Position numbers and translations under genes: made by a program. Below, in pieces: positions 293 through 18,259 of a DNA stretch of 21,463 nt. Position 1 is the first letter of the stretch. Each line of letters begins with the position of its first letter. The stretch comes from a virus, in the IMG/VR virus record IMGVR_UViG_3300029309_004125, positions 1-21,463 of that record; one strand, written 5' to 3'. Below the pieces are notes generated by a model that did not search any database, was not told where the DNA came from, and saw only the letters and a program-made list of their open reading frames with translations.

Positions 293-1327
293 ATGAAACA
301 TACTATGAAATTTGGAGTTGAGATTGAGTACAAAAGTGCTAAAGCCTCAAAACTTCTTAAGGGTTTAAAATCCCTTGGCTTAAATGCTAGAATAAAAGGT
401 TACCACCCTGACACAGATTTTACTACTTGGGATATTTGTTCTGATAGTTCTGTATCTTATGGCTATGGTAATAATATGACAGGTGGGGAAATTGTTTCTC
501 CAATCCTTACTCTTGAGAACATTGATATACTTGACAAGGTTTGTAAGGTGCTAAAGGATGTAGGTGCTACTGTTGATTACAGATGTGGTTTACATATACA
601 TTTTTCTTGGACAGATATGAATGGATCAACTGTTAAAAAAATCATTGAGAGATACAGAAAGTTTGAGAATGAGTTTGATGGGATAATGAGTCCTAGTCGT
701 AGAACTTCTTATTGCTCTGAAGGAAGAGTAACAAATGAAAACAGTTATGCTAGAAGTATGATAAACTACACAATGCCTAGAGGTGATTCTTTAGATGCTA
801 TTGCTAGAGCCGGAAGAAGAGAAAACAAAATTAATGTAACTAATATTGGAAGTTATAGTAGAACGGGAACTCTTGAGTTTAGACACCATAATGGAACTAT
901 TGATTCTATGAAGATTAAGAATTGGGTTTTATTTCTTGCTGACTTTATACAAGAATCTAAGAAAAAGGTAAATGCTAAGACTTTTGACTTTGATGTAAAT
1001 AGTGTTAGTGCTGACCAAAAAAATAAAGCCTATGGTTCTCTTAAATATGCTATGCAATCTTTGGACATAGAGATGAAACAGAACAGAGGTTTTGGTTTTA
1101 CTTTCAAGAAAGGTACACGAGTTGAAAGATTGTCTTATTCTGAGATAACTGAAAAATTGTATGTTGTTGGAACAAGAGAGTTATGTTCTGACAAATTGAG
1201 AGAGTTCGTTGGCTATGTGACACAAACTGAATTTACTCCTCAAGATACTATGTTTTGTGGAGTTGAAGAGAAGTTGGCTTATTACTATATGGGTCGTCGT
1301 GATATGTTTACACAGAGGAGGGCATAA
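293..1327 (+). CDS. Putative amidoligase (COOH-NH2 ligase, Amidoligase_2 type)
   Basis: A 344-residue protein that resembles the glutamine-synthetase-fold COOH-NH2 ligases (Amidoligase_2). Family-type motifs appear in order: FGVEIE near residues 7-12, GGEIVSP near 64-70, GLHIHFS near 99-105 and TLEFRHHNGT near 193-202. Enzymes of this fold use ATP to join a carboxylate to an amine, for example peptide-like bonds involving glutamate. The substrate here is unknown; a protein tail, peptidoglycan peptide or small metabolite are all possible. It starts behind a strong AGGAG site. Its stop codon overlaps the start of the next gene (TAATG), a gamma-glutamyl cyclotransferase-like protein. That pairing is known for the family and supports the call. 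The C-terminal 100 residues show no motif I recognise. Confidence 0.8.
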   Translation: MKHTMKFGVEIEYKSAKASKLLKGLKSLGLNARIKGYHPDTDFTTWDICSDSSVSYGYGNNMTGGEIVSPILTLENIDILDKVCKVLKDVGATVDYRCGLHIHFSWTDMNGSTVKKIIERYRKFENEFDGIMSPSRRTSYCSEGRVTNENSYARSMINYTMPRGDSLDAIARAGRRENKINVTNIGSYSRTGTLEFRHHNGTIDSMKIKNWVLFLADFIQESKKKVNAKTFDFDVNSVSADQKNKAYGSLKYAMQSLDIEMKQNRGFGFTFKKGTRVERLSYSEITEKLYVVGTRELCSDKLREFVGYVTQTEFTPQDTMFCGVEEKLAYYYMGRRDMFTQRRA

Positions 1328-1746
1328 TGAAATACATATCTTATGGAAGTAATTTGAATGTAGGGCAAATGAGAATTCGTTGCCCTAAAGCTAAACCTTT
1401 GGGAAAATTGTTATTGCCTAATTTTAGGTTGGTTTTTCGTGGGGTTGCTGATATTGAAGAACATAAAGGTTCTAAATGTCCGGTGGGTGTTTGGGATATT
1501 ACAAAAGAATGTGAAGAGTCTTTAGATAGTTATGAGGGTTATCCTCATCTGTACTCTAAAATATTCTTTAAGCTAGATGATGAGTTGGCTATGACTTATG
1601 TTATGAATACAAACAGAATAAGCCCACCGAGTTATCATTATCTAAAATGTATTGAAGAGGGTTACAATGACTTCAAACTTGACAAGAAGTATTTATTTGA
1701 TGCACAGAAAAGTTCTATCAATGAATCTTCTTTTACTCTTCTTTAG
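1327..1746 (+). CDS. Gamma-glutamylcyclotransferase-like (AIG2/GGCT fold) protein
   Basis: A 139-residue protein with the GGCT signature YGSNL at residues 6-10, the substrate-binding loop, and LDSYEG at 66-71. In the latter, E70 is the expected catalytic glutamate. GGCT-fold enzymes release an amine from gamma-glutamyl amides by cyclising the glutamyl group to 5-oxoproline. The start overlaps the amidoligase stop by one base, so the two are translationally coupled. A ligase plus an enzyme that could undo or trim gamma-glutamyl linkages suggests one pathway. The 3' end overlaps the convergent ParB-like gene by 14 bases. The C-terminus is shorter than in typical AIG2 proteins. The exact substrate is unknown. 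Confidence 0.8.
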   Translation: MKYISYGSNLNVGQMRIRCPKAKPLGKLLLPNFRLVFRGVADIEEHKGSKCPVGVWDITKECEESLDSYEGYPHLYSKIFFKLDDELAMTYVMNTNRISPPSYHYLKCIEEGYNDFKLDKKYLFDAQKSSINESSFTLL

Positions 1747-2305
1747 AATCAGGGGCAAAATTCATTAACTCACTCCTATTTATATAATGCTCCTTGAGGC
1801 AGTGAGGACACATTACTTTATGTAGTGAGTCCTCATTGTTACTAACAAATCTATCTGATTCGCTTTGCATACTATTGTTAAAAGATTCTTCAGTATATTC
1901 TATTGGTTTAAGTTCTAAATTATCATTGATAATATTATCTAAATTTTGTTGTGGGAAAAACTCTTTCATTGAATCTATATCTGATATTTCTCTAAGTTCT
2001 TTCATTAATGCATCATTATCCCACAATGAAAGCTCACTAGATTTATTGTCAATGATTCTATATTCTTTTGCCTTTTGTTCATTTAGATCCAACCTTATGA
2101 TTTCTATTTCTTCTCTACCCATTTCATTTAATGCCATAAATCTTGTATGACCAGCAATTATGACATTATCTTTATCTACTGCAATTGGACTGTTATAACC
2201 ATATCTTTCTATACTGTTCTTAATTGCTTGAACAGCATCTGTGTTTTTTCTTGGGTTATTCCAATATGGTTTAATTTGATTGATGTTCAGTTTTTCTATC
2301 TTCAT
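1733..2305 (-). CDS. ParB/Srx-fold (ParBc) domain protein with C-terminal CxxC tail
   Basis: A 190-residue protein with an N-terminal ParB/sulfiredoxin-type domain. Residues 1-20 carry the LNINQIKPYWNNPRK type start, and the nucleotide-binding motif AGHTR is at 51-55, followed by a DNKSSELSLWD-like segment at 86-96. Such domains bind or hydrolyse nucleotides; plasmid ParB proteins are CTPases and sulfiredoxin is an ATP-using enzyme. The middle region is acidic. The tail holds CPHC (166-169) followed by H173, half of a possible zinc site. It is the last gene of the replication operon and its start lies inside the end of the IbrB-like gene. Phage proteins of this type are often encoded near DNA-modification genes. 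It is not a partition protein in any way I can see, since no ParA is present. Confidence 0.75.
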   Translation of the reverse strand: MKIEKLNINQIKPYWNNPRKNTDAVQAIKNSIERYGYNSPIAVDKDNVIIAGHTRFMALNEMGREEIEIIRLDLNEQKAKEYRIIDNKSSELSLWDNDALMKELREISDIDSMKEFFPQQNLDNIINDNLELKPIEYTEESFNNSMQSESDRFVSNNEDSLHKVMCPHCLKEHYINRSELMNFAPDSKEE

Positions 2306-2843
2306 ATTCTTTTCTTACCTCCAATTGTCGTCTTGTTTCCCAAGATTTTGAATATTCTGTATTCTCAAATAATTTGCTAAATCCAGTGACATGTTTTAAT
2401 CTTATCAGTTCCTCTGGCTCAAGTCCAAGATTATGACAAATTGTCGTGTCTTTAATTCCTTTATCTAACATTGTAAATACAATATTAGCCATACCATCTA
2501 TGCTATGCTTTCCTCTAGCCCTATTATGCCTTACAGTTGAGGCCATTCTCTCTTCTATCTTCTTTTTAATGACAACAATAGGTAAATGACCATCTGTTGT
2601 TTCGTATATATCTTTATACATTTTCATAATTGAATATCTATGAAATCCATCTACTATGACAAATTTGTCAATGCTTTTATCATATATTGTTACTACTGGT
2701 TGTGTGTAGCCATCTTGTTTAATTGATGTGTAGAGTAGATTCATTTCATTTTTGGCAACTGCATTTGGATTGTAATTATTTGCTTGTATTCTGTCAATTT
2801 TGATCCATTGGACTTTATTGACTGGGTGCTTGTCGTAATTCAT
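2271..2843 (-). CDS. IbrB-like ParB-domain protein
   Basis: A 190-residue protein with a ParB-type domain. The start is INxxQ-like with NNYNPN, the motif IVDGFHRY is near residues 63-70, and a conserved basic stretch RMASTVRHNRARGKH lies at 99-113, with a helical C-terminus. The DGFHR and STVRHNRARG motifs are those of IbrB, the partner of IbrA. The upstream gene is indeed IbrA-like, which confirms the pairing. IbrA and IbrB are known from E. coli as co-activators of prophage gene expression, but their biochemical activity is not established. The gene overlaps the IbrA-like gene by 29 bases and the next ParB gene by 35 bases. It is distinct in sequence from that downstream ParB-domain protein. 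Confidence 0.82.
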   Translation of the reverse strand: MNYDKHPVNKVQWIKIDRIQANNYNPNAVAKNEMNLLYTSIKQDGYTQPVVTIYDKSIDKFVIVDGFHRYSIMKMYKDIYETTDGHLPIVVIKKKIEERMASTVRHNRARGKHSIDGMANIVFTMLDKGIKDTTICHNLGLEPEELIRLKHVTGFSKLFENTEYSKSWETRRQLEVRKEYEDRKTEHQSN

Positions 2844-3990
2844 TCTCTTTTTTTTCCCTTTCTTTTCTTTTGTATCTAATGAGAGTTGGCTCTCTTCTAA
2901 AGTTTCTCATCTTTGTGCCTTCCCAATCATTGGTTAATATACAAGAAACTTCAGCTTTTCTACACTTAAGTTCAAAATCTGGGTTCTCCTCAAATATTTC
3001 TCCAAAGACTCTTTCATTATCCATAAACATTTTTATGAAGTATTTGGAGTATTCTTCATTAATGAGTTTTTCTAAAAGATAATCTCTATACTCTATCCAA
3101 CTTTTGAACATATATGGAAGGTCATATATGAAGTAATCTTTATTAAGTTTCGCCGCCATATCAATACCACCTAGTCGTTGGGTAAGTTTTTCATAAGTGT
3201 TCGGCTCTATCTCTTGTGCATAGTAAATATTTTTAATTGCTGTTTCGTGTGTTAGATTTGATATTCTCATATTAGGAAATGGAACTCCATATCTATATTG
3301 AGCATCATAAACCTTATTGTATCTCCAATCATTATCAAATATGGCTTTCCATATGTCATGAAATGTCCAATCATATATTGGGTAGAATGAGTATATGCCT
3401 TTATCTTTATGCCTAACTGCCCCCCATGTTTCCCCTTTGTAAGTTTCTTGATAACATAATCCCATTTTTCTTACTGGAGATTCTTCTGTACGAACACCAC
3501 CAAGTATAGCAAGATTATTGCCCCATTCTTTTTCATAGATTAGATCCATTATGTCATAGAATCTATCACTTCCATAAATATTTTCTTTATACGAGTAGTC
3601 TTGATAAGGATACATCCACTTGTCCTTGTGTTCCTTATCCCAACATTTTAACCACCAATCTATCGTTGATGTTCCATTTTGTATGAGAAAGGGAATTTGA
3701 AACCAATATGGCTCAACTTCTTTTCTTTCCATAGAATATTTAACTTGGTCAATTGTTCCTTGCCACTCTGCCTCTTGGTCTAAAAACAAAACCTTAACTG
3801 GTAATCTGTTCTTTTCTTTTGCAACTTTTATCATAAGTTCAAGAACCACAGTAGAATCTTTACCACCTGATATATTTGTTGCTACTGTTTCAAATTCATC
3901 ATATAGCCATCTTATTCTGTCCAATGCTTTTTCATACACATTGACATCTTGATATATTTTCATAAATGTGGATTTAGATGTTTTTTTCAT
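2815..3990 (-). CDS. IbrA-like PAPS-reductase family ATP-pyrophosphatase
   Basis: A 391-residue protein of the phosphoadenosine-phosphosulfate reductase/N-type ATP-pyrophosphatase superfamily. The PP-loop SGGKDST lies at residues 41-47, followed by a VLFLDQEAEW strand and a GGVRTEES segment. The C-terminal part (NLTHETAIKNIYYAQEIEP and later CILTNDWEGTKM) resembles IbrA/DUF3440 proteins rather than CysH. Enzymes of this fold activate a substrate with ATP, often ahead of sulfur transfer, as in DndC. Family members have been linked to regulation or nucleic-acid modification, but the reaction of IbrA is not known. The gene lies between a GNAT gene and the IbrB-like gene with overlaps on both sides. 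A role in sulfate assimilation is unlikely given the context. Confidence 0.83.
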   Translation of the reverse strand: MKKTSKSTFMKIYQDVNVYEKALDRIRWLYDEFETVATNISGGKDSTVVLELMIKVAKEKNRLPVKVLFLDQEAEWQGTIDQVKYSMERKEVEPYWFQIPFLIQNGTSTIDWWLKCWDKEHKDKWMYPYQDYSYKENIYGSDRFYDIMDLIYEKEWGNNLAILGGVRTEESPVRKMGLCYQETYKGETWGAVRHKDKGIYSFYPIYDWTFHDIWKAIFDNDWRYNKVYDAQYRYGVPFPNMRISNLTHETAIKNIYYAQEIEPNTYEKLTQRLGGIDMAAKLNKDYFIYDLPYMFKSWIEYRDYLLEKLINEEYSKYFIKMFMDNERVFGEIFEENPDFELKCRKAEVSCILTNDWEGTKMRNFRREPTLIRYKRKEREKKENELRQAPSQ

Positions 3991-4366
3991 ACCAATATTG
4001 ATGAGGTTTCCTTTTAGTATATTTTGCTTTTATTTCATAATTTTCATGTAGGTATGTTCTATAAATACCCCTTACATCAATTACTTTAAAATTATTTTTT
4101 TTTGCCCATAATTCTGATTGTACTATTAGTGCTTTACCAATACCAACTTCTCTGTATTGTGGTATCACATAATTATTTCTAAACCTTACTCGTGTTTGCG
4201 AAAGTATGAGTAATGAACAACAACCAACGACCTCATCTATTGTTGCTTTAAACCATATTTCTGGTTTTTTCTTAATTGAGAAACAAGCATTTTCAGTGTC
4301 ATAATTTTTTGGTATAAATGCAATCTCTTCATAATCACATTGTTCTATGTCAAATCTTTTAATCAT
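3974..4366 (-). CDS. GNAT-family acetyltransferase-like protein
   Basis: A 130-residue protein with the acetyl-CoA-binding motif A of GNAT enzymes: VIPQYREVGIGKAL at residues 67-80, where R72-x-x-G75-x-G77 is the pyrophosphate-binding signature. The preceding beta strand is GCCSLLILSQTRV. The short, basic C-terminus (KYTKRKPHQYWY) resembles phage GNAT-fold proteins that act near DNA-modification genes, and a Mom-like role is conceivable but unproven. It overlaps the glycosyltransferase-like gene by 8 bases and the IbrA-like gene by 17 bases, so it is expected to be made together with them. The acyl acceptor cannot be read from sequence. Confidence 0.75.
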   Translation of the reverse strand: MIKRFDIEQCDYEEIAFIPKNYDTENACFSIKKKPEIWFKATIDEVVGCCSLLILSQTRVRFRNNYVIPQYREVGIGKALIVQSELWAKKNNFKVIDVRGIYRTYLHENYEIKAKYTKRKPHQYWYEKNI

Positions 4367-5060
4367 AATAGTACGGCCACCCGTGTCTAAATGATGAAGT
4401 TCGTTGTGTTATCATATCTGTTTTTGACCAATCATATTCTAAATAAGATTTATTGGAAACAAACCATCTTGCAACTCTTGTTTTATTGTTGTTGCCTAGT
4501 GTAGAATTACTTGGACATATATGTTCAACTAAAGAGGGCATTGGACATAAAGGTATATGATTTTTTTTTAAACAATACATTGTGAGTCTACTGTCGTCCC
4601 ATTTAAATTCTTTTTTTATGTGGTTGTTATCCCACTCTAAAAAATTTTCTGTTTCTTCTTTTGGTAATAAACAGGCTTGCCCCCATATTCCATCTGCAAT
4701 CCCAATCCACCTTATGTCTTTTTCTTTTGCCTGTTCGCAGATTTTCCTATTTGCATATAGACACATAATTTTTTTTGGGAATACTTTTATCAACTCTTTA
4801 ACTGTATGAATAAAATCATTACAAAGACTTATGTCATCTTGAATTACTAGATGATGAGTTGCATCAGTTGACAAACAGAACTCCCAACTCTTTTTTGCAG
4901 TATGCCAAACTCCTCTTTTTTTCCAATCCTCTATTACTGCAAAATCTTCTAACTCATTTAAAATATTTGCTTTACCTAATTGATTAATGATCTTTTGAAC
5001 AATTGTTTTTCGCTCTTCATAAAATGGACAATGCATTATAGCAATACTTAATTTATTCAT
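4359..5060 (-). CDS. GT-A-like glycosyltransferase
   Basis: A 233-residue protein with a Rossmann-like start (KLSIAIMHCPFYEERK) and a central HHLVIQDDISLCNDF stretch in which QDD matches the metal/nucleotide-sugar DxD position of GT-A glycosyltransferases (GT25-like). A GQACLLPKE segment and WDDSRLTMYCLKK further on are where acceptor-binding and acidic residues of this fold usually lie. It overlaps the primase-helicase by 8 bases and the GNAT gene by 8 bases. No signal peptide or membrane segment is seen, so it acts in the cytoplasm. Sugar and acceptor are unknown. DNA bases, surface glycans or a protein are possible, and the replication-operon setting favours an intracellular acceptor. Confidence 0.65.
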   Translation of the reverse strand: MNKLSIAIMHCPFYEERKTIVQKIINQLGKANILNELEDFAVIEDWKKRGVWHTAKKSWEFCLSTDATHHLVIQDDISLCNDFIHTVKELIKVFPKKIMCLYANRKICEQAKEKDIRWIGIADGIWGQACLLPKEETENFLEWDNNHIKKEFKWDDSRLTMYCLKKNHIPLCPMPSLVEHICPSNSTLGNNNKTRVARWFVSNKSYLEYDWSKTDMITQRTSSFRHGWPYYYD

Positions 5061-6774
5061 TGTACCAATATTGATTGTTCTGTTCTGATTCTTTGTCTAT
5101 GACTTCTTTATAGATTCTTTTATTTATGTCATAGGTAAAATAACACTCGCCTATATTTCCATATAGACCTTGTTCTCTTATCTTTCGTGTAATAACTCTT
5201 GTTTGTTTAGTGTCAAAATCTCTATATACTACCAAACCAACATCAGACATATTATTCCAATGAGCACTCCCAGAAACATCATACATCGTTGGCACACATA
5301 TTGAGCCATCTTCTTTACGAGGGAGTTTGCTTGGGTGAGCCACGAGCCAAATAGTGACTTCATGCGTTCTACAAAACTTTTTACACTTGCTAATAACATC
5401 GCGAATATGTTCATCTTCTCTTTTGTTTCCTTCTCTACTTGAATTTATCTCATTATATGGGTCAATAATCAAGCCTTTAATTCCAAACTTCAAAACACTT
5501 TGTCGTGCCTTAGATAAGATCCATTCTATTGATGGTATCGTATCTTTATTTTCCATAAAGAAAAAATTGTCATTAAGTATTTGCAAACCTTTGTTTAAAT
5601 CCTCTTTATTCATTCTTTCATTCATTCCATCATCAAATGGCTTATGTATTATCTTTTCTACTATTCTTCGTATATGTTGAGGGGTAGAATGTTCTGGACT
5701 AAATACACAAAATTTCCATTTATATAAATTAAAAAGGTTAACTGCAATCTGGTCTATAAAATTAGATTTACCATGATTAGGTACTCCAGTTACACAATGA
5801 AAAGTGCCCGGTTGTATTTTGTAAATGGTGTCTAGTATTTTAAAGCCTGTGGAGAGAGGTTTTTGAATCTTACCTTCATATATATCTAAGATTTCCTTTT
5901 TGTAGTTCTTAATCGTGTATAAGCCCTCTATGGGATAAGGTATTGCAGTTTTTAAACATTCTATAAGAGTATTTCTTCCAAGTTTGACAAGACACTCATT
6001 TGCATCTTTTGTAATAATATCACCTTGTTGATTAGGGAATTGTATTCGTAAACATCTATCTTTACCAAACCTATGCACCAACTCTAAATGTAATGCCTTA
6101 CCAGCTTCATCTTGGTCCGTTGCTATATATACTTTCTCAACTTCATTTAACCACTTACAATTTTTTAATGCAGAGAATCTTAAGTCATTTAAATCAAACT
6201 TTGCATTTTTTGGTGCCCCATCTGGTAATGTTACAGCATTAATTATTCCAGCTTCATAAAATGCCACTACATCCATTTCACCTTCAGCTATGATTATGTT
6301 TTTCTTTCCTGTCCGTTCCCAATACTTTTTGACATTATCTATATTATATAAAGTTCGTTGTGCATTAGGTTTTTGTGAAAATCTTTTGTCATAAGTTCTA
6401 TATTTGATATTTTGTGTTTCTCCATCTTGAATGTATGGAAAACAGATAGATCCATTGTAAGAATAAATACCTAAATCTTCCACAGTCTTTCCACTAATTC
6501 CTCTTTCCTTAAACCAATCATATAGTTTGTTTTTGTCCATATCTTTATTGTTGTTTACTATTGTATATTTTCGTTCATATAGATTTACTTTACCACTATA
6601 TTCACAATTATGACACTTAAATAATGCACTTTCATTTTCAATCTTTACACTCAATGGAGTGTCATGTGTATTTTTTGATTTTCTTGTGTTTTTACATTTA
6701 GGACAAAATGTTTTATGAGAACCAATACTATAACTATTGCAATAGATTCCAAGTTCCTTAAGTTTTGTTTCCAT
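5053..6774 (-). CDS. Primase-helicase (T7 gp4/Twinkle-like)
   Basis: A 573-residue replicative protein with three regions. An N-terminal zinc ribbon carries C24, C27, C54 and C57. A Toprim domain carries E164 in AEGEMD and D220/D222 in ATDQDEAG. A C-terminal RecA-like DnaB helicase carries Walker A GVPNHGKS at 330-337, Walker B LIIDPYNE with D438, and WLVAHPSK at 476-483. The Toprim residues and a matching zinc ribbon suggest both primer synthesis and helicase activity at the phage fork. The ATG directly abuts the stop codon of the upstream winged-helix gene. The cassette continues with the glycosyltransferase-like gene, so replication and the putative modification genes share one transcript. 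Length and motif order match the family. Confidence 0.93.
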   Translation of the reverse strand: METKLKELGIYCNSYSIGSHKTFCPKCKNTRKSKNTHDTPLSVKIENESALFKCHNCEYSGKVNLYERKYTIVNNNKDMDKNKLYDWFKERGISGKTVEDLGIYSYNGSICFPYIQDGETQNIKYRTYDKRFSQKPNAQRTLYNIDNVKKYWERTGKKNIIIAEGEMDVVAFYEAGIINAVTLPDGAPKNAKFDLNDLRFSALKNCKWLNEVEKVYIATDQDEAGKALHLELVHRFGKDRCLRIQFPNQQGDIITKDANECLVKLGRNTLIECLKTAIPYPIEGLYTIKNYKKEILDIYEGKIQKPLSTGFKILDTIYKIQPGTFHCVTGVPNHGKSNFIDQIAVNLFNLYKWKFCVFSPEHSTPQHIRRIVEKIIHKPFDDGMNERMNKEDLNKGLQILNDNFFFMENKDTIPSIEWILSKARQSVLKFGIKGLIIDPYNEINSSREGNKREDEHIRDVISKCKKFCRTHEVTIWLVAHPSKLPRKEDGSICVPTMYDVSGSAHWNNMSDVGLVVYRDFDTKQTRVITRKIREQGLYGNIGECYFTYDINKRIYKEVIDKESEQNNQYWYNE

Positions 6775-7395
6775 TTAACCAGCCAAACTGCTTGTTGTTT
6801 TTTTCTCTTTTATACTTTTATACTTTTCGTAAACTTTGTCAACAAACCAATTATATGGATTGTGTATAAATTTTCCATTCTTAGATTTTGCATAATTAAT
6901 TACACATTTTTTAATTTCATCTTTGTTTTCTATTTTTTTCCACAATGCAAAAGTTTTATCTTTTTTAGTTTTATGTTCACTAGATGGATATAACTTCCAA
7001 AACTCTTCAAACTCTTGGGGGTATTCTATTCTACCATTAGGTTTCTTTTTCATTCTCACTATATGTATATTATTTATAGTATTAAGGGGTGACATATTTG
7101 TAGGGGGGGAGAGTGACATATTTGTACCCCTCCCAATATTTATTGTATAGAGATTTGAGGTTTGTCTTCCATCTTCAAATCTTTCTTTTTTTATAATTAT
7201 TTTTTTCTCAATGAGTTCTTGTAAACATCTCAAAATTGTTCTCTCATCACAATTACACATTTTTGCCAAGTGTCTTTTACTTGGATATGTTTCATTATCT
7301 TCATTGGCATAGTTGGCTAATACTAATAAAACAAGTTTTGTAGTAGGCTTAATATTTTGAATTTTTATACAATTTGCGATAGCAATAAAAGACAT
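6775..7395 (-). CDS. Winged-helix replication protein (phage O/replisome-organiser-like)
   Basis: A 206-residue protein. The N-terminal half is a winged-helix domain of the helix_turn_helix_36 kind: TKLVLLVLANYANEDNETYPSKRHLAKMC is its core at about residues 19-48, followed by a wing at about 63-78. The C-terminal half has an EFEEFWKLYPSSEHKTKKDK stretch and aromatic helices as in phage replication initiators. It precedes the primase-helicase with no gap, the usual position of an origin-binding or helicase-loading protein. No Shine-Dalgarno sequence precedes the ATG, and a -10 box lies only 6-7 bases upstream, which suggests a leaderless message. A simple regulator is the alternative. Confidence 0.78.
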   Translation of the reverse strand: MSFIAIANCIKIQNIKPTTKLVLLVLANYANEDNETYPSKRHLAKMCNCDERTILRCLQELIEKKIIIKKERFEDGRQTSNLYTINIGRGTNMSLSPPTNMSPLNTINNIHIVRMKKKPNGRIEYPQEFEEFWKLYPSSEHKTKKDKTFALWKKIENKDEIKKCVINYAKSKNGKFIHNPYNWFVDKVYEKYKSIKEKKTTSSLAG

Positions 7396-8823: not shown

Positions 8824-9819
8824 TTAAATATGAAACATGCTTAGTTGATTGTCATTTACTTCCACAATATTCCCTGACATATAATCTAAATATTCTTTCC
8901 AAGTTTTGTGCCTATAATACTGACGGACAACATATCTTTGAAATTGTTTTAAATCTTTTTTTTGTTGTAGTGGATCATACACCATTGGATAAGGCAAAAC
9001 ACCTATATCCACCATTTTATTAAAACGATACCATATTCTCTCCCATGTTTCTCGTTTATCATATCCAATTAACATATATGCCATAATATGATTGGGCTTA
9101 ACACCATTCTTGATTAGCAAGTCTACACCTTTAAAAAATCTTTTTTCATCACCAATATTATCCCATGCAGTATAAATTCTTTTTTGTTTAAAACTGTCAT
9201 CTCTATAATCTATTGTAACTAAATTTTCTGCAACAACCTCATCTATCAATCTAATGTTTATTCCTTGATTAAAACATACTTTAAATCCACCCTTTTGAAT
9301 TTCTTGTATTCTTAATTTCCATTGTTCCTCTGGTTGACCAAAGAAATCATTGTCCAATAAATGTATTTTTTTTGGATAATTACCACCTCTCCAAATATCA
9401 TATATAGAATTAACTGATTTGTTTTTTCCCTCTTTATTTGGAACTACACAAAATTTGCATTTTAATCTGCACCCTCTTTGAGTAAATCCTAAACTAAATT
9501 CATAATCTGGATAAAAACTGTAATCTAATTTATTATGATCACCTATATAATCTTCAATGACTAACTTCCAATTATCTGTGCCTGTACCACCAATAATTGC
9601 ATTTGGGTAGTTTTCTTTTAATCTATTTATTCTGTTTAAACTAAATTGAAATATTGATGAACCAAAAACATAATCATATTCTTTGTCAAATAAATCTTTA
9701 CTAACTGACCTTGTAAAATCTACTTCATAACCTTTTTCTTTATAATATGATGACAATCTCATCAAAGCAAGATTTGGCAATTTGCCATCTATTTGAACTA
9801 ATTTTACAGATTTAACCAT
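8824..9819 (-). CDS. Radical SAM protein
   Basis: A 331-residue protein with the radical SAM cluster motif CRLKCKFC (C117, C121, C124; CxxxCxxC). The N-terminal part (VKLVQIDGKLPNLALMRLSSYYKEKG...) resembles the B12-binding-like Rossmann region of B12/radical SAM proteins, with GSSIF and GGTG segments. After the cluster come HLLDNDFFG and GINIRLID strand motifs of the TIM-barrel. Such enzymes make a 5'-deoxyadenosyl radical; the substrate is not apparent. Phage copies have been proposed in nucleotide or tRNA modification. The -10 box TATAAT is 14 bases before the ATG and no ribosome binding site is seen. A short co-transcribed gene follows. Confidence 0.87.
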   Translation of the reverse strand: MVKSVKLVQIDGKLPNLALMRLSSYYKEKGYEVDFTRSVSKDLFDKEYDYVFGSSIFQFSLNRINRLKENYPNAIIGGTGTDNWKLVIEDYIGDHNKLDYSFYPDYEFSLGFTQRGCRLKCKFCVVPNKEGKNKSVNSIYDIWRGGNYPKKIHLLDNDFFGQPEEQWKLRIQEIQKGGFKVCFNQGINIRLIDEVVAENLVTIDYRDDSFKQKRIYTAWDNIGDEKRFFKGVDLLIKNGVKPNHIMAYMLIGYDKRETWERIWYRFNKMVDIGVLPYPMVYDPLQQKKDLKQFQRYVVRQYYRHKTWKEYLDYMSGNIVEVNDNQLSMFHI

Positions 9820-13703: not shown

Positions 13704-14006
13704 ATGAAGAAACGATATACAAACAAGAAACACCTAGAGCATATCCATACGCTTAACTGCTGTGTAAGTAATTTAGATTGTAATGGTGTTATTCAAGCCC
13801 ATCACCTTTTAAAACCTTTTGATGGTGTAAGAGGTATGGGAATGAAAGCTAATGATAGGAATTTAGTGCCTCTTTGTTTGTATCATCATACTGAATTACA
13901 TAGAATGGGAAATGAGTATGAGTTCTCTCATAAATATTTTGGTTTAGAAACACAATTAAAATATATTGCACAAACAGAATGGTTAAGGAGTCCATATTAT
14001 GAATGA
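13704..14006 (+). CDS. HNH-type nuclease (DUF968/Ref-like)
   Basis: A 100-residue protein with an HNH-like layout: C19/C20 and C26 near the start, AHHLL (H33-H34), then MGMKANDRNLVPLCLYHHTELH, where N53, H61, H62 and H66 fall. That order (AHH..., GMGMK..., VPLC..HH.ELH) resembles DUF968 and Ref-like phage nucleases of recombination modules. It starts directly after the previous stop with no gap and overlaps the methyltransferase start by 8 bases. A recombination-linked or mobile-element-style DNA-cutting role is likely; the substrate is unknown. Confidence 0.75.
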   Translation: MKKRYTNKKHLEHIHTLNCCVSNLDCNGVIQAHHLLKPFDGVRGMGMKANDRNLVPLCLYHHTELHRMGNEYEFSHKYFGLETQLKYIAQTEWLRSPYYE

Positions 14007-14658
14007 TTTTAAATTAATAAACAAACATGCTTTTACAAGTGGAGATATATTATTAGGTGCTATTGATGATTTAATGATACAAAGTTTTGAATCAACTAAC
14101 ATAGCAAAATCCACATTTGATATTCTATATTGTGACCCACCTTGGGGAGTTGGGGCTCTTAAGATGTTTGATACACTAAATTCAAAGATGAATAATGTTA
14201 ACAAATCAACTGTTTGTTGGGAAACATTTGTAAACTGTTTTCCTAACATTATAAATAAATATTCCCATAACAATTCAATTGTAATTATTGAAATGAGTAT
14301 AAAGTATTATGATGTTTTTAAAAATGTCATTGAAAGAGAAACAAAATTTAAGTTACGACAAATATTCAATACTAATTATAAAAGTGGCTCCACTTTACGC
14401 CCTCTTAAAATTATGTATTTCTCAAATGAAAATCCATTAAGGTTTAATGAGTCAATAATAAAAGATACATATGGAGATGACTGTACTGATAAAATAATAC
14501 GACAATGTGCTTATGACAATGCTGTTATTTTAGATCCGTGTTGTGGATTTGGTCGTACTTTGCGAATGGCTAATAAATACAATATGATTTTTAGAGGTAA
14601 TGAAATTAATAAAGCAAGACTTAACAAAGCAATTAAATATGCAGAAAGGTTAATATGA
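13999..14658 (+). CDS. DNA methyltransferase (DPPW type)
   Basis: A 219-residue protein with an amino-methyltransferase signature. DPPW (46-49) is catalytic motif IV, and the SAM-binding motif DPCCGFG lies later, at about 179-185, followed by GNEIN. Motif IV before motif I is the beta-type order of N6-adenine or N4-cytosine methylases. No target-recognition domain or partner restriction nuclease is seen nearby, so it is an orphan methylase, plausibly for protection of the phage genome or timing of events. It overlaps the HNH gene by 8 bases. Confidence 0.82.
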   Translation: MNDFKLINKHAFTSGDILLGAIDDLMIQSFESTNIAKSTFDILYCDPPWGVGALKMFDTLNSKMNNVNKSTVCWETFVNCFPNIINKYSHNNSIVIIEMSIKYYDVFKNVIERETKFKLRQIFNTNYKSGSTLRPLKIMYFSNENPLRFNESIIKDTYGDDCTDKIIRQCAYDNAVILDPCCGFGRTLRMANKYNMIFRGNEINKARLNKAIKYAERLI

Positions 14659-17553: not shown

Positions 17554-17679
17554 ATGAGAACTGTTGTTTATTTTAGTGGATTGTTTTTTTGTACCTATTT
17601 TTTTTTCTTTTTATCAATGTTGTTATTAGGTGGATATGAAAAAACAGTCAATGAGATACGATACTTATTGGGATTGTGA
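17554..17679 (+). CDS. Candidate 41-residue membrane protein
   Basis: ATG at 17554 begins a 41-codon frame whose residues 4-26 form one very hydrophobic segment (VVYFSGLFFCTYFFFFLSML) followed by a short polar tail. A distant AAAGGAT at 17534-17540 is the only ribosome binding site. It overlaps the oxygenase start by 44 bases. Such short T-rich frames can arise by chance, so this is a cautious call. Confidence 0.38.
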   Translation: MRTVVYFSGLFFCTYFFFFLSMLLLGGYEKTVNEIRYLLGL

Positions 17680-18259
17680 AGAGATGGCTTTAGCAATTAA
17701 CCCAAAACAAGTAGGAACAACACATGGAGTAGTGAACTGTGGAGAGATAACAAGATCAACTTGTAATAGACTCATTAATGAAAGTACAAGTAGTGATAAT
17801 TTTCAAGTAGCTGGTAGAGTTTTAAACAAAGAAACTTATGAAAAGAATTCTCAAATAAGAGAAGTAAATGCATTTATTATTCATGAAGAAAAATTATGGG
17901 TTGATGAGTTAGTCATATCTCTTGCTGAAACTGCATTAGCTTATTTGGATTATAATGTTGTTGGTTTATTAGAAAGACCTCAACTTCTTAACTATAAGCA
18001 GAACTCAAAGGGGTATGATTGGCATACCGACATTGGATTAGGTATGGCATCAACAAGGAAAATATCAATAACAGTTAACCTCAATGATAATTATGAGGGA
18101 GGAAATCTACAATTTTTTTCTGACAAGACTTATGATTTTAATCCACCAAGAGGAGATGCTATTGCCTTTCCCTCATTTCTACCACATAGAGTAACACCAA
18201 TTACAAAAGGTGAAAGATGGTCTTTGGTAGCTTGGATAGGAGGACAACCTTTCAGATGA
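17636..18259 (+). CDS. 2-oxoglutarate/Fe(II)-dependent oxygenase
   Basis: A 207-residue protein of the prolyl-4-hydroxylase-like 2OG-Fe(II) oxygenase family. The metal triad is H130 and D132 in DWHTDIG with H184 in PSFLPHRVTP, and R194 in KGERWS should bind 2-oxoglutarate. GGNLQFF and RGDAIAFPSF are the usual core strands. Cytoplasmic, no signal peptide. The family hydroxylates proteins or nucleic acids; the substrate cannot be read here, and marine phages often carry such genes. The ATG at 17636 with AGGTGG upstream is preferred over the GTG two codons before. The next gene's ATG overlaps its stop. Confidence 0.87.
   Translation: MKKQSMRYDTYWDCEEMALAINPKQVGTTHGVVNCGEITRSTCNRLINESTSSDNFQVAGRVLNKETYEKNSQIREVNAFIIHEEKLWVDELVISLAETALAYLDYNVVGLLERPQLLNYKQNSKGYDWHTDIGLGMASTRKISITVNLNDNYEGGNLQFFSDKTYDFNPPRGDAIAFPSFLPHRVTPITKGERWSLVAWIGGQPFR

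Follow-up and report, generated by a model that had tools for sequence, protein, structure and literature searches.

An uncultivated virus carries five overlapping genes that form one variant of a recurrent viral cassette with interchangeable parts, and we infer, with moderate confidence, that the cassette places a chemical decoration on viral DNA. The core of the cassette is IbrA, a PP-loop protein and predicted adenylating enzyme, together with two ParB-like proteins (IbrB and ParB2), whereas the predicted glycosyltransferase (GT) and the GNAT-superfamily acyltransferase that accompany them in this virus are exchangeable cargo. The window examined here is the whole of a 21,463-base IMG/VR record (IMGVR_UViG_3300029309_004125), which is probably a fragment, and its relevant features are as follows:

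6775..7395, minus strand: replication initiation protein (HTH_36/DnaD-like; phrog_270 1e-29, HTH_36 7.8e-15), the head of the operon
5053..6774, minus strand: primase-helicase preceding the cassette (phrog_239 1e-83; Toprim plus DnaB_C domains)
4359..5060, minus strand: predicted GT-A glycosyltransferase, 233 aa (phrog_854 'glucosyltransferase', E 7e-12), probable transferase of a sugar to the modified base
3974..4366, minus strand: GNAT-superfamily acyltransferase, 130 aa (Pfam Acetyltransf_7 1.3e-6; Acetyltransf_7/_1 above cut-off)
2815..3990, minus strand: IbrA, PP-loop (PAPS-reductase/CysD-like) protein, 391 aa (phrog_2302 3.5e-69, PAPS_reduct 1.6e-15)
2271..2843, minus strand: IbrB, ParB/Srx-like protein, 190 aa (phrog_2159 1.4e-71, ParB_N 4.5e-6)
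1733..2305, minus strand: ParB2, second ParB-like protein with a C-terminal CPxC pair, 190 aa (phrog_620 1e-46; ParB-like N-terminus of phage DNA methyltransferases, phrog_498 2e-35)
13999..14658, plus strand: N6/N4-type methyltransferase (MTase) with a DPPW motif (N6_N4_Mtase 8.9e-6), assigned by a profile of the MTases found in the cassette slot of other viruses to the same family (permMT), and a possible partner in trans

The first-pass annotation had described four genes, each overlapping the next and directly following the primase-helicase, and this observation is confirmed, as are the motifs on which it rested (QDD in the GT, RxxGxG as REVGIG in the GNAT, and SGGKDST in IbrA). The overlaps are 8 bases between primase-helicase and GT, 8 bases between GT and GNAT, 17 bases between GNAT and IbrA, and 29 bases between IbrA and IbrB; however, the set continues with a fifth gene that had been missed, ParB2, which overlaps IbrB by 35 bases.

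Each of the cassette proteins retains the residues expected of its family. IbrA and IbrB match the profiles of, and lie adjacent like, the IbrA/IbrB pair. In IbrA, SGGKDS, D71, E73, E170, R174, P204, D207, W208 and R242 are invariant, such that the PP-loop and the GxRxxES and PxDW motifs of the CysD/FAD synthase branch of adenylating enzymes are all present, and its nearest solved relatives by sequence are the adenylylating enzymes CysD (PDB 1zun, 8e-10) and FAD synthase (2e-9). Its AlphaFold2 model (pLDDT 92.5) also gives fold matches to this superfamily. No cysteine column is conserved in more than half of 92 homologues, and IbrA thus lacks the C-terminal catalytic cysteine (ECGxH) of PAPS reductase (CysH). 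In IbrB the DGxHR and TxRHNRARGxH motifs are intact, and they are 80-100% conserved in 84 homologues. The GT has a predicted GT-A fold with the acidic metal-binding motif (AlphaFold2 pLDDT 88; matches to R655, GnT-I, GalNAc-T2, LH3 and ColGalT1), with D76, D156, H180 and S186 invariant or nearly so in its family. Because it matched no Pfam family up to E 0.1, it cannot be placed in GT25, to which its likeness is at the level of fold only (TM about 0.5). In the GNATs that occupy this slot, R72 and G75 are invariant, and the family profile matches solved GNATs at E 9e-14. The structures of GT and IbrA were predicted from alignments that excluded phage-record sequences.

To determine whether this grouping exceeds chance, we examined the co-occurrence of the families, a check that had been proposed along with the original observation, and the grouping passed. 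In a first test on IbrA-seeded loci, GT-family hits occurred 22 times within 4 genes of IbrA and 0 times farther out. Across 73 non-redundant viral IbrA loci, the counts within 4 genes versus farther away were 22 to 1 for GTs, 12 to 0 for GNATs, 24 to 1 for DPPW-type MTases, and 25 to 4 for a roughly 95-aa domain that we term WTMG and that has no convincing Pfam or PDB relative. IbrB lies within 4 genes of IbrA in 66 of these 73 loci, and ParB2 is near IbrA in 44. Because the GNAT, MTase and WTMG profiles were built in part from IbrA neighbours, those enrichments are somewhat circular, the first GT test being less so. Independent probes nevertheless recovered the same module: of 67 loci found with ParB2, 55 contain IbrA and 34 contain a GT; all 78 of 78 loci found with WTMG contain IbrA, IbrB or ParB2; and 12 of the 13 GT homologues closest to that of the window lie beside IbrA or IbrB. 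These searches required alignments as queries, since scans with the single GT or IbrA sequence of the window found only 1-3 loci, and a 22-sequence GT alignment was too diverse to scan. The GNAT found nothing by tblastn in named phages and only three homologues in IMG/VR, all of which lie beside IbrA.

The cargo varies even among near relatives of the window: one close relative has a GT plus an MTase-like gene, and two have no cargo. The combination of GT plus GNAT beside IbrA recurs in Microbacterium phages Hendrix and Leaf, in three further loci (L019, L031 and L032), and in two probable haloarchaeal-virus contigs (L109 and L110). MTases with DNA-type DPPW/DPPY motifs occupy the slot in other viruses, and a fusion of ParB2 to an MTase was also found. 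The class I MTase present in some slots is not evidently CmoA-like, its nearest PDB entries being generic methyltransferases.

The best clue to the target of the cassette comes from Bclasvirinae mycobacteriophages. Ares, which represents the genus of Rosebush (Rosebushvirus), has the order ParB-DpdA-QueC-QueD-QueE-FolE-TerL, Heath and Baee have ParB-DpdA-x-y-TerL, and Rita1961 has ParB-x-x-IbrA-IbrB-TerL. The ParB of Rita1961 is 49-56% identical to those of the other three phages, the terminases of Ares and Rita1961 are 60% identical, and this ParB, like gp1 of dPreQ0-pathway mycobacteriophages, is homologous to ParB2. IbrA-IbrB occupies the slot, between the same ParB and terminase, that in Rosebush-type phages holds the DpdA/Que pathway, which puts dPreQ0 into DNA; Rosebush DNA carries dPreQ0 in about 28% of its G (PMC6884629).

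The interpretation originally attached to these genes, that the four could form a pathway decorating phage DNA or tRNA at the replication fork, with a leaning towards sulfur transfer, is only partly supported. The enzymes do form a recurrent functional group, and viral DNA is the best-supported target, given the synteny with DpdA/Que, the DNA-type MTases in the same slot, and the ParB partners shared with DNA modification. Sulfur transfer is not supported, owing to the absence of a conserved cysteine and the nearness to CysD and FAD synthase, and little speaks for tRNA. Nor is a tie to the fork or to the primase-helicase supported, since in most relatives the module lies elsewhere, often next to the terminase (TerL is near in 21 of 73 loci, this helicase family in 3 of 73). 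A fixed four-gene pathway is likewise not supported, because GT and GNAT are optional and exchangeable.

The mechanism that we infer is that IbrA uses ATP to adenylate a position on a base of viral DNA, or of its precursor, and that a nucleophile other than an enzyme-bound sulfur replaces AMP. In this view, IbrB and ParB2 would act as the nucleotide-dependent DNA-engaging partners, as DpdB does for DpdA, and the cargo enzymes would then elaborate the resulting handle: here the GT would add a sugar and the GNAT an acyl group, whereas other viruses would use MTases or a hydroxylase-like protein. The purpose would most likely be to mask DNA from host nucleases. What our computations establish are the gene content and overlaps, the intact catalytic motifs, the folds of GT and IbrA (as predicted), the recurrence of interchangeable cargo, and the synteny with a proven DNA-modification pathway; that DNA is the substrate, each chemical step and the order of steps, and any protection are inferences. 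We found no report of a modified nucleoside in any IbrAB virus, and literature searches, which covered CC-licensed PMC papers, found none treating GT, GNAT and IbrA-IbrB as one system, although comparative-genomics work on phage ParB/PP-loop pairs may exist. A broader and more tentative reading, which we consider possible but somewhat less likely than not, is that IbrA-IbrB-ParB2 is the core of a previously undescribed and widespread class of viral DNA hypermodification, in which a cysteine-free PP-loop enzyme adenylates a base in DNA and makes a handle that exchangeable glycosyl-, acyl- and methyltransferases and hydroxylases diversify in viruses of both bacteria and archaea. Neighbouring viral lineages would then carry different DNA decorations by swapping cargo genes.

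An alternative, which we regard as unlikely, is that GT, GNAT and MTases decorate structural proteins or a glycan, with IbrA and IbrB activating or transferring a small molecule in that pathway. The GT25-like fold is of a protein/lipid type, and distant GT homologues (E above about 1e-19) lie in other gene contexts without IbrA, some in actinophage-type contigs with other GT-family ORFs and beside large ORFs that could be tail genes; similarly, phiAsp2 Pas35 follows tail-protein genes. The GT fold alone therefore does not point to DNA. However, the GT clade closest to that of the window is almost always beside IbrA or IbrB, the same GT exchanges in the slot with DPPW DNA-type MTases, the IbrAB slot is shared with a DNA pathway, and in the window the genes overlap replication genes rather than structural ones.

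About equally unlikely is that IbrA and IbrB are a regulator of gene expression or a host-takeover factor, and that GT and GNAT are unrelated accessory genes gathered at a hot spot. E. coli IbrAB is known only as an activator of eib gene expression (PMC7649339), IbrAB pairs in cellular genomes mostly lack the cargo, and cargo is absent from two close relatives of the window, with no recognised cargo enzyme in 20 of 73 loci. But the cargo is not random, in that a few group-transfer families recur in overlapping order across viruses of bacteria and probably haloarchaea, and the PP-loop catalytic residues are invariant.

Slightly less likely still is that the set builds a hypermodified nucleoside in host or viral tRNA. 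PP-loop enzymes such as TilS and TtuA (distant matches of the IbrA model) act on tRNA, the class I MTase in some slots matches phrog_4752 'tRNA methyltransferase', and Hendrix and Leaf encode tRNAs just upstream; yet there is no tRNA gene in the window, the DPPW slot MTases are of DNA N6/N4 type, and the ParB partners and the DpdA/Que slot swap point to DNA. Thiolation or sulfation of DNA in the manner of DndC or CysH is very unlikely, since, despite the shared PAPS_reduct domain and weak hits to BrxP (1e-9) and DndC (2e-6), IbrA has no conserved cysteine whereas DndC needs a cysteine dyad and an Fe-S cluster (PMC10853773), and no DndA, DndD or DndE is annotated around IbrA in the named phages that we read.

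IbrA/IbrB-like genes are common in phages (215 of 50,697 phage records match the IbrA of the window, and there are hundreds of IMG/VR candidates), but they are annotated only as PAPS reductase, partition protein or regulator. If they install a DNA handle, chemistry could be assigned to several unassigned families (phrog_2302, phrog_2159, phrog_620, phrog_854 and the WTMG domain), and a new route to modified DNA would be added that is useful for understanding restriction evasion and for DNA-labelling enzymes.

Among known systems, the Dpd and phage 7-deazaguanine pathways (DpdA-DpdB-Que) likewise combine a ParB-like partner with base-modifying enzymes, but none of the cassette proteins of the window is a TGT such as DpdA, and the IbrAB cassettes have no Que enzymes, a PP-loop IbrA instead, and added GT, GNAT and MTase enzymes. 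The CmoA-CmoX-CmoY 5-carboxymethylcytosine (5cxmC) system of phage S-B43, an experimentally shown DNA modification (PMC12783734), resembles our proposed scheme in joining a handle, ATP-dependent activation (by an asparagine-synthetase homologue) and further decoration, often with ParBc proteins nearby, and the AMP-forming ligase and ParBc proteins that accompany it speak for our reading; however, IbrA belongs to the CysD/PAPS-reductase branch, no C5-MTase or CmoA was recognised among the ORFs scanned, and the decorating enzymes are GT, GNAT and MTase rather than an amide ligase. Dnd phosphorothioation (DndC/DndB) and BREX type 4 BrxP share a PP-loop PAPS-reductase-like protein, and DndB was formerly classed with ParB, but the present cassette is viral, carries GT and GNAT cargo, and lacks the cysteine dyad, the cluster cysteines and DndA, DndD and DndE. 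The IbrA-IbrB pair of E. coli ECOR-9 and prophages consists of the same two adjacent protein families, usually without GT and MTase cargo in cellular copies. In Microbacterium phages Hendrix, Leaf and Rasputia, a terminal GT-MTase-GNAT-IbrA cluster has GT, GNAT and IbrA contiguous as in the window (IbrA 38% identical), with an extra MTase (WTMG-class I), extra GTs in Leaf, and no IbrB at the genome end shown.

Within the window, which is the complete 21,463-base record of an uncultivated virus, the ORFs of interest run head to tail on the minus strand, and from the primase-helicase on, each overlaps the next by 8 to 35 bases:

7395-6775 (-), replication initiator
6774-5053 (-), primase-helicase
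5060-4359 (-), GT, a GT-A glycosyltransferase
4366-3974 (-), GNAT
3990-2815 (-), IbrA
2843-2271 (-), IbrB
2305-1733 (-), ParB2, a second ParB-like protein

Profile matches are strong for IbrA (phrog_2302, 3.5e-69), IbrB (phrog_2159, 1.4e-71), ParB2 (phrog_620, 1e-46) and the primase-helicase (phrog_239, 1e-83), and moderate for the GT (phrog_854, 7e-12) and the GNAT (Acetyltransf_7, 1.3e-6). The first-pass annotation, which described a cassette of GT, GNAT, IbrA and IbrB joined to the replication operon, is confirmed in what it observed, although it missed ParB2.

Close relatives distinguish a core from its cargo. Three IMG/VR contigs share IbrA at 72-75% identity: in the first of these (L004), the helicase is followed by a GT (60% identical), a 207-aa MTase-like protein, IbrA, IbrB and ParB2, whereas in the other two (L003 and L002) the helicase is followed directly by IbrA and IbrB, with ParB2 next in L003 and the L002 locus ending shortly after IbrB. 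IbrA-IbrB(-ParB2) therefore stays, while GT/GNAT, GT/MTase-like or nothing fills the gap. Also kept next to the cassette in L003 and L004 is a pair of genes convergent with it (window 293-1746, plus strand), consisting of an Amidoligase_2 protein followed by a GGACT/AIG2-like protein.

The module is widespread. A profile scan of viral contigs kept 80 further IbrA loci of 368 confirmed, and named phages add Flavobacterium, Mycobacterium, Streptococcus, Arthrobacter, Bacillus, Rhizobium and others. In 95 IbrA loci, co-directional neighbors within five genes include IbrB (81), ParB2 (46), GT (22), DPPW MTase (22), a ~95-aa domain that we call WTMG (22), GNAT (16), and a class I MTase, a second GT type, a cupin and a hydroxylase-like protein. 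When IbrA sequences were thinned to below 70% identity (73 loci), the numbers of occurrences near IbrA (4 genes or fewer) versus far from it were 22/1 for GT, 12/0 for GNAT, 24/1 for DPPW MTase, 25/4 for WTMG, 67/0 for IbrB and 48/2 for ParB2. Because the GNAT, MTase and WTMG profiles were built in part from these neighbors, their enrichment is partly circular, and the flanks are short; however, the first test of the GT, which used a profile from the window GT, L004 and two named phages on loci that were not thinned, gave 22 near and 0 far. The grouping is real and non-random.

Independent probes lead back to this locus. Scanning with ParB2 in place of IbrA recovered 67 loci, of which 59 have IbrB, 55 IbrA, 39 WTMG, 34 GT, 16 DPPW MTase and 12 GNAT. 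Scanning with WTMG gave IbrA, IbrB or ParB2 nearby in 78 of 78 IMG/VR loci; this orphan domain (FAKTMPxxPHxY...YKYWTMGxP...INR; e.g., L043:1856-2152), for which we found no convincing Pfam, PHROG or PDB relative, occurs only near these three genes in an unconstrained scan and is often fused to a class I MTase. Scanning with the GT showed that, of the 13 closest homologs with a called GT, 12 have IbrA or IbrB within a few genes, the exception starting 124 bases from a contig end, whereas of the remaining 66 more distant ones only one does. In two loci (L279 and L280), a 226-aa ORF joins a partial GT in frame to a partial IbrB with no IbrA found in the locus, which looks like a deletion that removed IbrA. 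The three GNAT homologs found all lie beside IbrA.

The combination present in the window also recurs: GT and GNAT occur beside IbrA in Microbacterium phages Hendrix (GT-MTase-GNAT-IbrA) and Leaf (GT-GT-GT-GNAT-MTase-IbrA), in three further loci (L019, L031 and L032), and in two contigs (L109 and L110) with the arrangement IbrA-IbrA-IbrB-WTMG-GT-GNAT-WTMG-...-ParB2-ParB2, i.e., the full cassette with two copies each of IbrA and ParB2. These contigs are probably from haloarchaeal viruses, in that L109 has an acidic proteome (19% D+E against 11% K+R) and a ThyX 62-63% identical to that of Haloarcula tailed viruses; its GT is 30% (2e-32), its GNAT 26% (3e-7) and its IbrB 54% identical to those of the window.

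Why DNA would be the substrate is suggested by the Bclasvirinae mycobacteriophages, in which the interval between the left end of the genome and the terminase holds ParB-DpdA-QueC-QueD-QueE-FolE in Ares, ParB-DpdA-x-y in Heath and Baee, and ParB-x-x-IbrA-IbrB in Rita1961. Across the five left genome ends considered (L011, L260, L261, L262 and L263), this interval is a swap site for different modification gene sets, with a homologous ParB first in each of the four that carry a set. The terminases of Ares and Rita1961 are 60% identical, and the Rita1961 ParB, which is homologous to ParB2 of the window, is 49-56% identical to the other three. Because Rosebush, of the same genus as Ares, carries dPreQ0 in about 28% of its guanines (PMC6884629), IbrA-IbrB occupies the slot, with the same ParB, of a proven DNA-base modification. 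In addition, the MTases in the cassette slot are of DNA N6/N4 type, one ORF fuses a ParB2 domain to such an MTase, and phage DNA-MTase profiles (phrog_498) contain the ParB2 domain. The 2025 description of 5-carboxymethylcytosine in phage S-B43 also notes frequent ParBc proteins and an ATP-dependent ligase acting on a base handle (PMC12783734), but this is analogy, not proof.

With respect to mechanism, IbrA keeps every PP-loop motif (SGGKDS, D71, E73, GxRxxES/R174, P204, DW, R242) across 92 homologs but has no conserved cysteine. Its nearest solved relatives are CysD and FAD synthase by sequence, and FAD synthase and PAPS reductases by fold, plus a helical C-terminal region. These features fit adenylation of an oxygen followed by displacement by an amine or similar, and argue against a sulfur relay of the DndC or CysH type. 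IbrB keeps DGxHR and TxRHNRARGxH, consistent with an active ParB/Srx fold, and the model of the GT (pLDDT 88) is GT-A, with D76, D156, H180 and S186 conserved. Whereas the motifs, the folds and the linkage come directly from these analyses, the substrate, every reaction and its order, and the anti-restriction purpose are inferences.

Two other explanations remain possible, though we consider each unlikely. Modification of the virion or of a glycan is kept alive by the distant GTs that lie outside IbrAB loci, and a regulatory role by E. coli IbrAB and by those loci that lack cargo. Action on tRNA and sulfur chemistry are less likely.

The interpretation offered by the first-pass annotation, that the enzymes decorate phage DNA or tRNA at the fork, perhaps through sulfur transfer, is supported only in part: its DNA-decoration half is strengthened, but the sulfur, fork and tRNA parts are not. 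With moderate confidence, these genes are best viewed as a new, putative form of phage DNA-hypermodification cassette, its core chemistry being a matter of inference. Elsewhere in the record are two other enzymes:

17630-18259 (+), 2OG-Fe(II) oxygenase (2OG-FeII_Oxy_3, 2e-16), which could conceivably supply a hydroxyl handle
8824-9819 (-), radical SAM protein of phrog_9298 (E 8e-50)
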